Shown here one piece after another: positions 24,020 to 43,169 of a DNA stretch of 64,000 nucleotides. The notes under the pieces are model-generated. The model was not told the origin of the DNA, searched no databases, and saw nothing but the letters and a program-made list of their open reading frames with translations. The translations under genes were made by a program, and so were the position numbers. This stretch comes from Sediminibacterium sp. (GTDB lineage: Bacteria > Bacteroidota > Bacteroidia > B-17B0 > Aurantibacillaceae), in contig JASGCO010000003.1 of NCBI GenBank assembly GCA_030054095.1, forward strand, positions 62,001 to 126,000, read 5' to 3'. Within the stretch, counting starts at the first letter, position 1. Each line of letters begins with the position of its first letter.

Positions 24020-24240
24020 ACGTTTCCACCCACACCTTTTCCAAAGTTTCAAAACTTTGGAAAAGGTTTACCACCCCACGTGGCCGGGCTTTCCGCTATA
24101 GCCTGCTGGCCCTTTGCTGCTTTTGCTGCGGCTCCGGGGTCTTCGTACCTCAGCCGCCTCGCCCGCGCAAAATCACGCAAAGCGCTGCGCAGGGCTGCCG
24201 CTTCAATCCCTATGCGAACAGGGGATATCGTACGTAATCA
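24020..24240. repeat. G+C-rich structured intergenic element
   Basis: A stretch clearly richer in G+C than its surroundings. It opens with a perfect 15-bp hairpin, CCTTTTCCAAAGTTT-ca-AAACTTTGGAAAAGG (24035-24066). Then comes GGCCGGGCTTTCCGCTATAG (24081-24100), a variable middle that pairs with itself (GCCCTTTGC/GCGCAGGGC-like arms), and GCTGCCGCTTCAATCCCTA (24206-24224). I recall a similar frame, GGGCTTTCCGCTATA to TGCCGCTTCAATCCCTA, from intergenic regions of other Flavobacteriia; this is from memory and unverified. There are short open frames across it, but none looks like a real protein. Confidence 0.5.
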
Positions 24241-24243
24241 GGC

Positions 24244-24428
24244 TTAACCGTAAAACAGACAGTAGGATTTCTATTACGCACCAAAATTTGCGGCGGCGTT
24301 TGAGAATGCTCAACTTTCCGGTCTTCAAAATATCGTTAGATATTCTTACAGTCCTCAAGTTTGCGCTCCTCAAACCCATTGCAACTTTTGGCGCTCATTA
24401 CAAAATCTACTGTCTGTTTACGGTTTAA
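24244..24428. repeat. 185-bp imperfect palindrome
   Basis: The left arm starting TTAACCGTAAAACAGACAGT and the reverse complement of the right end, TTAAACCGTAAACAGACAGT, match over the whole element with scattered mismatches and 1-bp gaps. The fold centre is AATATC-gtta-GATATT at 24329-24344. The inner pairing includes GTTTGAGAATGC with GTTTGAGGAGCGC. It sits between the 3' end of the ABC-transporter gene and the start of pdhB. A transcript would form one long hairpin. AGTAGGATTTCTATTACGCA in its left arm resembles the right arm of the palindrome at 42992. Confidence 0.7.
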
Positions 24429-26780: not shown

Positions 26781-28901
26781 ATGAAGAAAATTGTACTACT
26801 CATACTCCCCTTTTTACTGAAAGTTTCGGTAACTACAGCTCAACAGGGTGCTGTTAAACCTTGTTACACAGATGAAGCAATAGAAGAACACTTCAGAGCC
26901 AATCCTGAGGCCAGAGCCCGTTACGAACAAACAAAACGCCAGTTTAATCAGGACTACGCTAATTTTATTCTTAAACAAAATCAGCAACAAGGTAAATCGG
27001 CGGCTAGCGCGGCACCGGTTTATACTATCCCGGTTGTGTTTCACATATTACACATTGGTGGTGCTGAGAACATCAGCGACGCGCAAATTTTAAATCAAAT
27101 GCAGGTGTTAAACGAAGATTACGCTAAACTGAATGCCGACATCGTTAATACCGTAGCCTCATTCACCGGTATTGCCGCCGATGCCCAGATTGTTTTTAAG
27201 TTAGCCACCCTTGATCCGAATGGAAACTGTACCAATGGTATCGTCCGTCATTACGATGTAAATACCGACTGGACACGGAATATGTCGCATTATGTTTATA
27301 CCTGGAATCCTCAACGTTACATGAACGTATATGTTGTAAAATCAATTACTAACAATGCTGCCGGATACACGTTTAAACCAGGAACAGCTCCAACCACGGC
27401 TGCCGATTGTATTGTTATGCTTTACAACTACGTAGGCGCTATTGGTACATCGAACGCCAATAATGCCAATACACTTACTCACGAAGCCGGTCACTGGTTC
27501 AATTTATCTCATACCTGGGGAAATACCAATAATCCGGGAGTAGCCTGCGGCGACGATGGCATTACCGATACCCCAATTACGAAAGGTTACACTTCCTGCG
27601 CTTTAGCCAGTTCTTCGGTATGTAACGCTGGGATTGCGGAAAACGTTCAGAACTACATGGATTATTCATACTGTTCTACCATGTTTACAGACGGACAAAA
27701 AACCTATATGCACGCTGCCCTTAACAGCGCTATTGCCGGGCGTAATAACTTATCCACGCCAGCCAATCTAGCACTTACGGGGGCGCTTGGAACCGCTAAC
27801 TGCGCTCCAATTGCCGATTTTATTCCAAATCCTCCCGGATCCTTTACTATCTGCTCCGGCCAAACCATTACGATGCGCGATTTCTCATATAATGGTACCA
27901 TTTCCAGCTATTCATGGGCCAGTTCAGCAGTAAACACTATTGCTACTCCTAATAACAGCATCACAAACATTACCTTCCCGAATCCCGGAACTTATAGCGT
28001 TTCGCTTACAGTCAGCAATTCTCAAGGAAGTAACACGGTTGTAAAAAATGTTACGGTATTAAATGGTGTTCCTAACTTTACCACTACCTATAGTGAAAGT
28101 TTCGAAAACGCTACCTTACCTCCTAACTGGACTGTTCTTAATATGGGGGGTGGAACAACCTGGCAACGGGTTTCAGGACCAGCCTCTGACGGCACGTTCA
28201 GCTATAAATTAGATGGTACTATCAGTGCCCCCAACCAGGTAGATATTTTGGAAACCGGTTCCTATGATTTCCTGAATAACCAGGGAGCTATTTACACCTT
28301 TAAGTACGCATACGCCCGTTACAGTGCAGCTGCCGCTAATGCCGACGTATTTAAGGTACAGGGGAGCAGTGATTGTGGCGGAACCTGGAAAGATATTTAT
28401 ACACCTACTTCCAGCGCCTTATCAACCGGATCAGGTGGTGTAATGACAAGTCCGTTTACACCAACATCTACCGCTCAGTGGAAACTCTTTACGTTAACCA
28501 ATCACCCGGCATTTGTGTTCTTTGGTAACTCTAACGTAAAATTCCGTTTTTATTTTCAGGAATCGCCTAATGGCTTTGCCAATAACATGTATCTGGATGA
28601 AATCAATTTTACAGGCAGCATAGGTGTTAATGAATTAACCAAAGATTATGGTTTTGCCTTATTACCTAACCCGGCAAATAATAGCGCCACCCTCAAATTA
28701 ACGTTAAGCACCGCCACAGATGTAAAAGTGAAGATTATGGATTTGAGCGGACGTATTTTAAATGAACAACACTATGGTAGCCTGATGGGAGAACAAACAC
28801 TGCAACTGAATCAACTCGATCGTTTAAGTTCAGGTGTTTATTTAGTGCAAGCCAGTGTTAACGGGGCTATCCTTAATAAAAAACTAATTATAGAGCATTA
28901 A
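26781..28901 (+). CDS. T9SS-secreted M43-family zinc metalloprotease
   Basis: A 706-residue protein. After a signal peptide (ending TTAQQ) and a propeptide-like region comes an M43 (cytophagalysin/pappalysin) catalytic domain with HEAGHWFNLSH (His234, His238, His244; Glu235 catalytic) and a downstream Met-turn (NYMDYSYCSTMFT). Next is a PKD-like Ig domain (about 350-430), then a jelly-roll-like domain beginning SFENATLPPNW (about 445-615), and a type A T9SS sorting domain at the end (LLPNPANNSATLKL to SSGVYLVQ to NKKLIIEH). It is exported by Sec, then carried over the outer membrane by T9SS and cleaved or anchored. It has its own terminator at 28926. Confidence 0.92.
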   Translation: MKKIVLLILPFLLKVSVTTAQQGAVKPCYTDEAIEEHFRANPEARARYEQTKRQFNQDYANFILKQNQQQGKSAASAAPVYTIPVVFHILHIGGAENISDAQILNQMQVLNEDYAKLNADIVNTVASFTGIAADAQIVFKLATLDPNGNCTNGIVRHYDVNTDWTRNMSHYVYTWNPQRYMNVYVVKSITNNAAGYTFKPGTAPTTAADCIVMLYNYVGAIGTSNANNANTLTHEAGHWFNLSHTWGNTNNPGVACGDDGITDTPITKGYTSCALASSSVCNAGIAENVQNYMDYSYCSTMFTDGQKTYMHAALNSAIAGRNNLSTPANLALTGALGTANCAPIADFIPNPPGSFTICSGQTITMRDFSYNGTISSYSWASSAVNTIATPNNSITNITFPNPGTYSVSLTVSNSQGSNTVVKNVTVLNGVPNFTTTYSESFENATLPPNWTVLNMGGGTTWQRVSGPASDGTFSYKLDGTISAPNQVDILETGSYDFLNNQGAIYTFKYAYARYSAAAANADVFKVQGSSDCGGTWKDIYTPTSSALSTGSGGVMTSPFTPTSTAQWKLFTLTNHPAFVFFGNSNVKFRFYFQESPNGFANNMYLDEINFTGSIGVNELTKDYGFALLPNPANNSATLKLTLSTATDVKVKIMDLSGRILNEQHYGSLMGEQTLQLNQLDRLSSGVYLVQASVNGAILNKKLIIEH

Positions 28902-28925
28902 GCTTTATCCTCTTTCTTTATACTC

Positions 28926-28966
28926 AAAGAGCGGAAGAACATAACAGTCTTCCGCTCTTTTATTTT
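28926..28966 (+). terminator. Rho-independent terminator of the M43 protease gene
   Basis: AAAGAGCGGAAGA and TCTTCCGCTCTTT form a perfect 13-bp stem around a 9-nt loop, followed by TATTTT. Confidence 0.9.
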
Positions 28967-29014
28967 CAATGGTTCCCGTGTAACTCCATATAATAGCTTT
29001 TGGAAAGTGATGTT

Positions 29015-29233
29015 GGTTTTAAACCCGGATTATGCAATAGGCATCGTAGCAAGAGGTGAAAGCCCAATAAAACAGGCCATTTGGCGAGTGAGGCACGGCA
29101 ATAACGCAGTGCGTTATTGAGCGGGGCAGTGGGCAAGCACCTCTATAGTAAAGGAGCCAAACGGACGAAGTTTACTGTTTTGAAGGGATTTCGCCTCGTA
29201 GTAGATGTTCTATTACATAATCCGGGTTAAACC
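29015..29233. repeat. 219-bp imperfect palindrome, copy of the CCCrGATT family
   Basis: The left arm GGTTTTAAACCCGGATTATG mirrors the right end, whose reverse complement begins GGTTTAACCCGGATTATG. Pairing continues inward through CAATAG/TAATAG and GAGGTGAAA/GAGGCGAAA. An inner perfect hairpin, CAATAACGCAGTGCGTTATTG, sits at 29099-29119. The right arm abuts the stop codon (29235-29237) of the minus-strand membrane-protein gene. It shares arm sequence with the palindrome at 42992-43169. There is no credible coding region on either strand inside. With the terminator at 28926 it fills the 333-bp gap between the protease gene and the membrane-protein gene. Confidence 0.75.
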
Positions 29234-29234
29234 T

Positions 29235-29834
29235 TCAACTGTTCAATTGCGCCATTATGCTATCCAGATGTTGCAGTTCCCGTTTTATCTCCCTGCGTTT
29301 AATATAAAACGTATAAAAAGAGGCCCATGCCAGATAGGACAGCATAACCAGATAAACTACGTACTCCCGGTCTGGATCAGTATAAACCATTTTTTCAAAA
29401 ACAGGCTGCAGATACAAGTAAACGCCAACACTCAACACAGAGGAATAGAGCCACTCCGCATACATCAAAACATACTGCCTGAAACGCCGCGATGCTTTCA
29501 CCTTACGGACAGTTTCTGTAACGCTATCCGACAAACGTATTGTTTGCAAACGCGCTAACAGAAATAATTTAAGAAAAACGTAATACAAAGCACAGCCCAA
29601 CAAGATGTAATATCCTGCTTTTGAGGTAGAAATTACACCTGTAATACTTCTATCTACCAGCATAATAGCAAAGAGGGTTATCAGGTATAAAACAAACTGT
29701 TTCACCTGTGCTTGCTTCATTCGTCTGATTAACCGGCCTGCATCATCCGGCAGGTGCTTATTAACTTTTACACTTACGGTATTTAACGTACGGTTCTGCC
29801 ATTCGGCCCGATACATTTCCAGATCAAATTCCAT
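29235..29834 (-). CDS. Four-helix membrane protein coupled to an ECF sigma factor
   Basis: A 199-residue protein with four hydrophobic segments (about 46-63, 72-90, 124-143 and 155-173). The N-terminal 40 residues (EFDLEMYRAEWQNRT) are polar and would be cytoplasmic. The gene overlaps the 3' end of the sigma-factor gene by 11 bp. That position is usually taken by an anti-sigma factor, so this is a plausible membrane anti-sigma or signalling partner, but no zinc-binding or FecR domain is seen. I do not recognise the family. Confidence 0.75.
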   Translation of the reverse strand: MEFDLEMYRAEWQNRTLNTVSVKVNKHLPDDAGRLIRRMKQAQVKQFVLYLITLFAIMLVDRSITGVISTSKAGYYILLGCALYYVFLKLFLLARLQTIRLSDSVTETVRKVKASRRFRQYVLMYAEWLYSSVLSVGVYLYLQPVFEKMVYTDPDREYVVYLVMLSYLAWASFYTFYIKRREIKRELQHLDSIMAQLNS

Positions 29835-30312
29835 ATTCTATTCGTTTTTTAAGTTGTACTTTAATACGCTGTACTTTTACACCAATATTGTTTTCGGTCA
29901 TTCCCATCACCGTACCTATATCGCGGTAAGACATATTTTCCAGAACCATAGATATTATCGCACGATCCACATCATTAAGTTGCTGAATGGCTCTGTGTAA
30001 AACAGTAACACGCTCTTCCCTGCTATGCTCCTCCTCTTCTGTAATGCGATCAGCCTCGTGCCCTAACTGAACAGTCGTAATTTTTGCTTTCCGCCGATAC
30101 AACAAACAATTATTTACCGCAATACGGTAAATCCATGTGCCAATGGCCGATTCGTGCCGGAATGTTCCCAGATTTTGCCACACCTTAATAAAACAATCCT
30201 GTGTTAAATCAAGAGCCAGCGTTTCATCGTGCGTATAAAGACAACATAACCTGAAAATCTGATCTTTATACGTTTCGTACAAATCTGTAAATGTCAGTTC
30301 CTGCGTTTTCAT
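29824..30312 (-). CDS. ECF (sigma-70 family) RNA polymerase sigma factor
   Basis: A 162-residue sigma factor. Region 2 includes DQIFRLCCLYTHDETLALDL, then DCFIKVWQNLGTFR and WIYRIAVNNCLLYRRK. Region 4 includes LNDVDRAIISMVLENMSYRD and MTENNIGVKVQRIKVQLKKR. I choose the ATG at 30312, which overlaps the stop of the hydrolase gene as ATGA; the frame also opens 12 codons further upstream, but inside that gene. It is the central gene of a three-gene overlapping set (hydrolase, sigma, membrane protein), implying joint expression. Confidence 0.93.
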   Translation of the reverse strand: MKTQELTFTDLYETYKDQIFRLCCLYTHDETLALDLTQDCFIKVWQNLGTFRHESAIGTWIYRIAVNNCLLYRRKAKITTVQLGHEADRITEEEEHSREERVTVLHRAIQQLNDVDRAIISMVLENMSYRDIGTVMGMTENNIGVKVQRIKVQLKKRIEYGI

Positions 30313-31178
30313 TTTTCCAGAAAGGCATTCACTGTTTTTATAAACCACAAGGGCTGGTCAGAAGCTATAAAATCTTTGGCTTCTTCTGTAACGGCGTAAG
30401 TCACTGACCGCGCTTTCCCGAACATTTTTCTGATAACCGGTTCAGATTCGGAAACCGGCATTTTTTTATACGTTTTTGCAAAATACCATGTTGACACTGA
30501 TAGTATTGGTATGTTTGCGCTCTTTAAAGCCGGGATAAGATCATCTTCCATCTGTTCGCATAAGGTACCCGCCAGAGTTTTGCGATCGGAATGGCATTGC
30601 CAGTTAACAAACCTACTGATGTGCAATGTATCCATAAAGTTCATACTCTGCGCCAGATATTTCTGGCTTTTCCGGAACGTTTCCCTATCACTATCCACAG
30701 TAGTTGCAATAATGGATTTTTTAATGGCTTTCCATTTTCCGGCACTCATGGCTGTATCTAAAACCATGCTTAATTTCGGATAAAAATCGGAGGCTACCAC
30801 ACATTTAATATTTCCCGGAAGACGCTCTGCCAGTTTAACTCCTACGTAAGCACCATAGTTTTGCCCTATCACCACTACCTGCTTTAATTTCTCTTTTTCA
30901 ATAAATGCAACCAATGCTTCCACATATTTGGGAGTATATGCCGAGTCTATCGCCGGCATTTTGTAAAATCCCGCAAAATCAACCTGATAACAGGTGTAGT
31001 ATTTACTGTAATGCGCTACTATCGGGGCCCACATCTCCGATGAACAACCAATATGAGGTAAAAACACCAAGGGGTTTCCTGATCCTGTTTTCTGTATGGC
31101 AATGGCCTGCTGCGCCCGCAATCCAAAACCGGTAAATCCACAAACTAAAAGCAATGTTAGAAATTTCTCTATTTTCAT
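30309..31178 (-). CDS. Exported alpha/beta-hydrolase fold protein lacking the nucleophile Ser
   Basis: A 289-residue protein with an N-terminal signal-like helix (MKIEKFLTLLLVCGFTGFG). The fold landmarks are FLPHIGCSSEMW (oxyanion-hole region near residue 41) and the elbow GQNYG at 105-109. The usual GxSxG nucleophile is replaced by Asn107, so hydrolase activity by the normal mechanism is unlikely. The final helix motif QPLWFIKTVNAFLEK is canonical. The gene is the first of the overlapping operon with the sigma factor. A role as a sensor or binding protein is inference. The ATG at 31178 is preferred over an upstream GTG at 31196. Confidence 0.75.
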   Translation of the reverse strand: MKIEKFLTLLLVCGFTGFGLRAQQAIAIQKTGSGNPLVFLPHIGCSSEMWAPIVAHYSKYYTCYQVDFAGFYKMPAIDSAYTPKYVEALVAFIEKEKLKQVVVIGQNYGAYVGVKLAERLPGNIKCVVASDFYPKLSMVLDTAMSAGKWKAIKKSIIATTVDSDRETFRKSQKYLAQSMNFMDTLHISRFVNWQCHSDRKTLAGTLCEQMEDDLIPALKSANIPILSVSTWYFAKTYKKMPVSESEPVIRKMFGKARSVTYAVTEEAKDFIASDQPLWFIKTVNAFLEK

Positions 31179-42991: not shown

Positions 42992-43169
42992 TATTATCCC
43001 AGATTGTGCATTAGAAATTTGTAGTGAGAGCAAAAAGGCCTATAAAATCTGAACTTTTGCGATTGAGTCATAGTCACCACTATGGTGAATGAGCAAAAGT
43101 TGCGAAGCTTCAGATTTTGAAGGACGTTTTGTTCGTAGTAGGATTTCTAATACACAATCTGGGATTATA
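42992..43169. repeat. 178-bp imperfect palindrome, copy of the CCCrGATT family
   Basis: The left arm TATTATCCCAGATTGTGCAT mirrors the right end, whose reverse complement is TATAATCCCAGATTGTGTAT. Inner blocks also pair (AAAATCTGAA, CAACTTTTGC/GAACTTTTGC) and the centre is TCACCA-cta-TGGTGA (43074-43088). The right arm shares TCGTAGTAG, CTAaTACA and AATCtGGG with the element at 29015-29233. It lies between tandem paralogues 3 and 4 and fills most of the 399-bp gap. No coding region inside is credible. Confidence 0.78.

Follow-up and report, generated by a model that had tools for sequence, protein, structure and literature searches.

A palindrome beside a sigma factor-linked gene of Sediminibacterium is very probably a non-autonomous snap-back MITE with IS1380-type ends

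The palindrome at 29015–29233 of the window, the 64,000-nucleotide stretch of Sediminibacterium sp. DNA analysed here, is very probably a non-autonomous snap-back MITE of IS1380 type, with a hairpin that would be tied to its mobile life and not to the adjoining gene. The element is shorter than about 300 bp, has no transposase frame, occurs in many copies with shared ends and is flanked by a 5-bp duplication; for one family member, in Algoriphagus, an empty site was found. MITEs are usually seen as short-lived by-products of one insertion sequence (IS) in one lineage. The present family is ordinary as a kind, being a MITE, and unusual in the depth of its fold conservation.

Borders and fold of the element

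The inverted repeat at 29015–29233 has 57-nt arms that are 72% complementary. Folded alone as RNA, the palindrome reached -88 kcal/mol (z = -7.8), and none of 200 shuffled sequences folded equally well. The 219-bp palindrome described in an earlier note on this DNA is therefore real, but its borders are not those of the element, which is a 203-bp copy of the A-type subfamily at 29024–29226 (plus strand) with ends CCCGGATTATGCAATAG and CTATTACATAATCCGGG; the rest is flank and target-site duplication. The duplication, TTAAA, stands as a direct repeat at 29019–29023 on the left and 29227–29231 on the right. Folded as DNA, the element gave a z of -6.9. The family covariance model matched it over its full length (120.5 bits, E 3e-28); this model was built from 32 family members, with both window copies outside its alignment and close sister copies inside it. 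Rfam gave no match at gathering score anywhere in the window, and no intrinsic terminator (GC-rich stem plus T tract) was called in 28850–29300.

Alignment with copies from the same genome delimited an extra loop segment of 38 bp at 29100–29137 (plus strand), which has a small hairpin of its own, AATAACGCA...TGCGTTATT. The same segment is found in L006, L008, two copies of another subfamily, and its occurrence in two subfamilies suggests recombination between copies. Small palindromes also differ between the loops of other elements, for example CCGCCGCGGCGG, TTCCGATAGCTATCGGAA and CATAAACCCACTGGCTTTATG (L036, L024, L143, L160, L191, L210, L226), a pattern that would suit preferential acquisition of small inserts at the hairpin tip.

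Copies in the genus and target-site duplications

A second copy, 166 bp long and of the B-type subfamily, lies at 42998–43163 (plus strand; z -11.8) between direct repeats of ATTAT at 42993–42997 and 43164–43168, and the covariance model matched it at full length with 159.4 bits (E 5e-38). The earlier note had proposed that the two palindromes share arm sequence, and they do: the right-arm letters CTACTACGA and CTTCAAAA are present in both, and a local alignment of the two copies gave 70% over 89 bp (E = 5e-8). Calling the element a second copy of one family was correct as to kinship and too narrow as to number, since the window holds a third, related palindrome (24248–24423) and both copies retrieve dozens of relatives in the host genome. 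No strong match to the model besides these three was found in the window.

A scan for the 19-bp end motif AACCCRGATTATGCAWTAG, with 3 mismatches allowed, returned 66 sites in the host genome (G000), 136 in G027 and 16 in G010, compared to 1–3 for the reversed control. Eleven of 60 genomes were counted as matching, all of them within the genus, and most other genomes of the genus had no detectable relative. Elements range from 165 to 203 bp. When copies were aligned together with their flanks, similarity stopped at CCC...GGG and the next five bases formed a direct repeat. Exact 5-bp direct repeats were present at 58 of 103 de-duplicated elements from many genomes, whereas permutation gave a mean of 17.4 and, over 10,000 permutations, a maximum of 33; exact direct repeats at element flanks never extended to 6 bp. 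Two thirds of the flanking 5-mers (139 of 206) read TTNAA, the target. These direct repeats are the mark of a 5-bp staggered insertion. A duplication that is merely an extension of the palindrome was considered and rejected: the outer 5 bp were exact as a direct repeat in 64 cases and as an inverted repeat in 4, and because the outer repeat is direct and not inverted (TTTAA with TTTAA, TTAAA with TTAAA), palindrome extension is ruled out.

Distribution across Bacteroidota and an empty site

Searched in one genome per species, the exact end motif marked at least 117 stretches, mostly from Bacteroidota and some from other phyla. Many of these are about 166 bp long and have the same inner architecture (Algoriphagus, Echinicola, Aquimarina, Maribacter, Dokdonia, Galbibacter, Labilibacter, Saprospiraceae, Cyclobacteriaceae), and relatives in Cytophagales, Flavobacteriia, Saprospiraceae and Labilibacter keep the same fold at a length of 165–167 bp. 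A. algorifonticola and the MAG KLAP24 contributed at least 36 matches each. In a model-based survey of the phylum at least 5 of 247 genomes carried the family, a lower bound because filters were strict and scoring was limited to 11 candidates per genome. With such a count the family is widespread but patchy, and thus a mobile element and not a core feature.

Outside this range, loci in Chitinivibrionales (L125, L129, L131), Calditrichota (L128, L152, L159) and Opitutales (L136, L179) have the same ends and an inner sequence that is weakly or not similar. Many of them are about 164 bp long, a common length that could reflect a size constraint of the transposition machinery. Among viral contigs, four stretches carry the end sequence of the family and one carries that of a sister family.

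In A. formosus, an element (L164:6622–6786) follows closely on a terminator-like stretch and precedes the next gene, within a gene pair whose products, judged by their translations, are putatively a TonB-type receptor and a cation-ATPase-like protein. Both neighbours and the terminator-like stretch are also present in A. zhangzhouensis and A. algorifonticola, but the element is missing there, which makes this an empty site. Insertion, as the earlier note had supposed, is thus supported by the 5-bp duplications and by empty sites in two relatives at one locus, in Algoriphagus. For the window locus, the gene at 29235–29834 had no relative in the 39 other genomes of the genus that were searched.

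Ends shared with an IS1380-family insertion sequence

The terminal inverted repeats of the element match the ends of an IS1380-family IS found within the genus. A genus-wide search for the IS1380-type DDE domain turned up, in genome G036 (L114), an intact IS with a 437-aa transposase (NF033539 IS1380, 268 bits against a cut-off of 180; PF13701, 181 bits), ends CCCAAATTATGCATTAGG and CCCAGATTATGCATTAGAA, and a duplication, TTGAA, of 5 bp as in the element. ISEcp1, the best-known member of IS1380, likewise makes 5-bp duplications (PMC2887853). The same ends accompany the IS in G027, G024 and others; in G027 it is broken in two places, with a matching end motif beside each fragment. More widely, IS1380 copies or fragments of several genomes carry the same terminal repeat just outside the transposase frame, and it stands beside such a frame in Algoriphagus algorifonticola and Aquimarina muelleri. 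Beyond the ends of ~17–20 bp, no similarity between element and IS was seen. With only the ends in common, the element is not an IS that merely lost its interior.

No convincing IS1380 transposase (PF13701) was found in the host genome, where the best E was 0.007, and 7 of the 12 other carrier genomes examined, several being drafts, gave none either. Some host copies lie at contig ends. Because the host has no convincing transposase, its copies are probably now stranded, or the IS sits in an assembly gap; IS1380 ends without a detectable host transposase are also the reason for calling the element non-autonomous, or MITE-like. These absences count against the MITE reading, in which we infer mobilisation in trans in the host, and so does the conservation of the inner sequence (165–167 bp in several classes), which is deeper than in a typical short-lived MITE. 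We propose that an IS1380-family transposase would have cut and pasted the element in trans by binding its ~17-bp ends, CCCRGATTATGCAWTAG, and that this enzyme, of which congeners have an intact (G036) or a broken (G027) version, may now be lost or unsampled in the host. The hairpin would matter for, or result from, mobile life, for example through end synapsis, a folded single-strand substrate or extrusion at replication time.

At one place in G027 (L121 1000–1735, G027:C91), a miniature element interrupts an IS1380 copy and a RAYT-type REP lies inside a longer left end of that copy, so that three kinds of repeat are nested.

Covariation of the fold and decay of resident copies

Among 32 representatives, 33 of the 43 consensus pairs had changed on both sides in some sequences. 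The set left out the same-end loci of Calditrichota, Chitinivibrionales and Opitutales. Paired cells amounted to 93.0%, compared to 79.4% after shuffling, a percentage that is favoured by the derivation of the structure from the same alignment; double changes and the arm swap do not depend on the choice of consensus alone. There were 207 double-change cells, compared to 60.6 in shuffled alignments and 24–43 when slid, and the covariation score of 0.437 fell to at most 0.089 with partners slid by 1–3 columns. In the arm-swap test, own arms averaged -58.4 kcal/mol and arms of other elements -39.9 kcal/mol, and the own arm was the best partner in 20 of 32 elements.

Two asymmetric features were also kept. 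One is an AAT/GAA internal loop beside the ATAAAA/TTTTGAAG block to which the earlier note had pointed. The other is found in the right arm, where a bulged mini-hairpin of seven bases (GCRAAGC type) has GC as its outer pair in 24 cases, AU in 4 and GU in 2. As single-stranded DNA, the hairpin d(GCGAAGC) is known for unusual stability, and given the resemblance of GCRAAGC to it, the mini-hairpin may have a role at the DNA level.

A different pattern was seen in changes private to a single copy, compared inside the subfamilies of one genome. In subfamily A, 59 of 90 changed pairs were broken, 13 went to G-U, 7 were compensated and 11 were double and broken; the corresponding figures for the 42 pairs of G027 were 20, 19, 2 and 1. 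Subfamily B was intermediate (31 breaking, 13 G-U, 8 compensated, 0 double and broken), and several of its compensated changes were probably inherited, since they are common to several copies. The small subfamily C was mixed (10 breaking, 10 G-U, 14 compensated, 6 double and broken), seemingly because it contains two lineages. Within one genome, the frequency of change was similar at stem and at unpaired positions. The earlier claim that the structure is maintained is consequently supported for the family, where compensatory changes are found, but not for the single locus, where private stem changes mostly break pairs. Given this mostly uncompensated decay, the fold appears, as far as sequence comparison can tell, to be upheld along the line of active elements and not for the neighbouring gene, while landed copies drift. 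Such decay makes it less likely that each resident copy serves a host gene, and more likely that the fold has a role in transposition or is a by-product of it.

Position relative to genes

The gene beside the element (29235–29834, minus strand) encodes 199 aa with no Pfam family and had been called the sigma-linked membrane gene; it lies downstream of an ECF-type sigma factor gene (29824–30348, minus strand; sigma-70 region 2/4, PF04542 and PF08281). On the other side, a convergent gene (26781–28901, plus strand) encodes a secreted M43 peptidase with a secretion-system C-terminal sorting domain (PF05572, PF18962). The adjacency to a stop codon described in the earlier note was confirmed, with the stop at 29235–29237 on the minus strand 3 bp beyond the right duplication, and an mRNA from the sigma-linked operon that extends beyond this codon would include the hairpin. 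A role for it at the mRNA end of this gene was not supported, as resident copies decay mostly without compensation.

Several copies lie 0–11 bp from a stop codon. ORFs were present on either side of 91 elements; they were co-directional for 54 elements, convergent for 26 and divergent for 11 (convergent versus divergent, p = 0.02). The AT-rich target TTNAA, common at AT-rich gene ends, is enough to explain insertions 0–11 bp from stops: closeness to stop codons, including that at the window locus, follows from the stop trinucleotide TAA within TTNAA together with an intergenic bias. Placement near stops would then be passive, the product of an AT-rich, TAA-containing target and of selection against insertion into genes or between divergent genes.

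Alternative explanations

We considered whether the hairpin is a structured RNA or DNA domesticated by the host, which would stabilise or terminate mRNAs at their 3' ends and whose copies would be kept for that reason. The strong fold of both window copies, the covariation of the family, the scarcity between divergent genes and the several copies close to stop codons would all agree with such a function. However, no Rfam family matches, no terminator with a T tract was called around 29024–29226, pairs in resident copies are lost about as fast as unpaired positions change, congeners differ in copy number, with values between 0 and over 60, and the target duplications and empty site show insertion, so that we regard domestication as very unlikely. 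Movement as REP/BIME-type repeats by a RAYT (a Y1 tyrosine transposase) is almost certainly not the explanation. The elements are indeed palindromic, intergenic and multi-copy, and RAYT-like genes exist in the genus, one of them in G027 at ~180 bp from a copy. This RAYT, however, is flanked by its own, unrelated repeats, the element flanks none of the three RAYT-like genes of the host, neither 5-bp duplications nor DDE-type terminal repeats agree with such an enzyme, and 165–203 bp exceeds the 20–40 bp given for REPs in PMC3733652. A RAYT/REP origin was rejected, as the RAYT-like genes carry other repeats. In G027 (L108 1800–2850), the gene for a RAYT-like Y1 transposase has REP-like repeats of its own on both sides (CTCGTCCTTGTTTAGCG...AACGCGGACGTTT).

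A further alternative concerns the conservation of the fold and not the mobility. Template switching between arms, or quasi-palindrome correction, is a known process in bacterial quasi-palindromes and would yield double changes without selection. Compensated private changes are nevertheless few (7 of 90 in subfamily A, 2 of 42 in G027), which makes correction infrequent on that time scale, and the AAT/GAA loop and the one-sided GCRAAGC mini-hairpin persist across genera without being corrected away; we consider a purely mutational origin of the covariation unlikely. Within the preferred reading, a mobile MITE with IS1380-type ends, the conserved fold might itself be the transposition substrate, a single strand folding so that its ends pair as one double-stranded terminal repeat; this is quite unlikely, in our estimate. 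There is a similarly slim chance that the GCRAAGC-type mini-hairpin marks strand or side and that the folded strand is what an IS1380-type transposase works on, much as integron attC sites serve as folded DNA. If a folded strand were the substrate, a relative of DDE transposons would have been kept through the history of the phylum as a folded-strand parasite.

Relation to known elements

Like the element, the IS1380-family sequences ISEcp1, ISPme1 and ISAsp4 have a terminal repeat starting with CC and a 5-bp duplication; they differ in having a transposase gene, and the ends alone are in common. MITECca01 of Cardinium, also in Bacteroidota (~240 bp; PMC9769881), is likewise short, transposase-less and multi-copy and has the ends of a (resident) IS, but it is derived from IS982 and is lineage-specific, whereas the present family has IS1380 ends, a fold over its whole length and a range of several classes of the phylum. 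In Anabaena sp. 90, type II MITEs (PMC3542288) resemble the element in size (100–300 bp), folding and intergenic position; no IS with the same ends was found for them, in contrast to the partner IS identified here. REP/BIME repeats with their RAYT are intergenic palindromes too, but differ in size, ends, duplication and enzyme. No earlier description of the family was found in the literature searched, a scope that most subscription journals and ISfinder fell outside. A 166-bp palindrome that keeps its length, fold and co-varying arms across classes of Bacteroidota, where a match to the transposase is needed only at the ends, would allow selection on a transposon's folded form to be put to the test. 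It is also an unannotated source of strong gene-end hairpins and assembly breaks in many Bacteroidota genomes.

Related palindromes in the window

The third palindrome, at 24248–24423 (minus strand; 62.6 bits, E 7e-14; RNA fold z -11.1), has other ends, CCGTAAACAGACAGTAG, the same subterminal stem and the flanks CTTAA / TTTAA. Its sister family (L270–L292) occupies about 10 related places in the genome, three of which are 96–100% identical over the whole length; no transposase was found for it. Sister-family members end in CCGTAAAYAGACAGTAG, with duplications TTTAA or TTAAA in L271 and L272, and keep the subterminal stem of the main family, GTAATGAGCGCCAAAAG ... TTTTGGTGCGTAATAG. The ends seem to have been exchanged and the inner stem kept.

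A second palindromic repeat family, GC-rich, beginning with GAAGCGGCAGCCC and having an end stretch of the GCTATAGCGGAAAGCCCGG type, is present at about 24060–24205 of the window and in L009, L015, L022 and L121. Repeats of this GAAGCGGCAGCCC family often adjoin copies of the IS1380-ended element.
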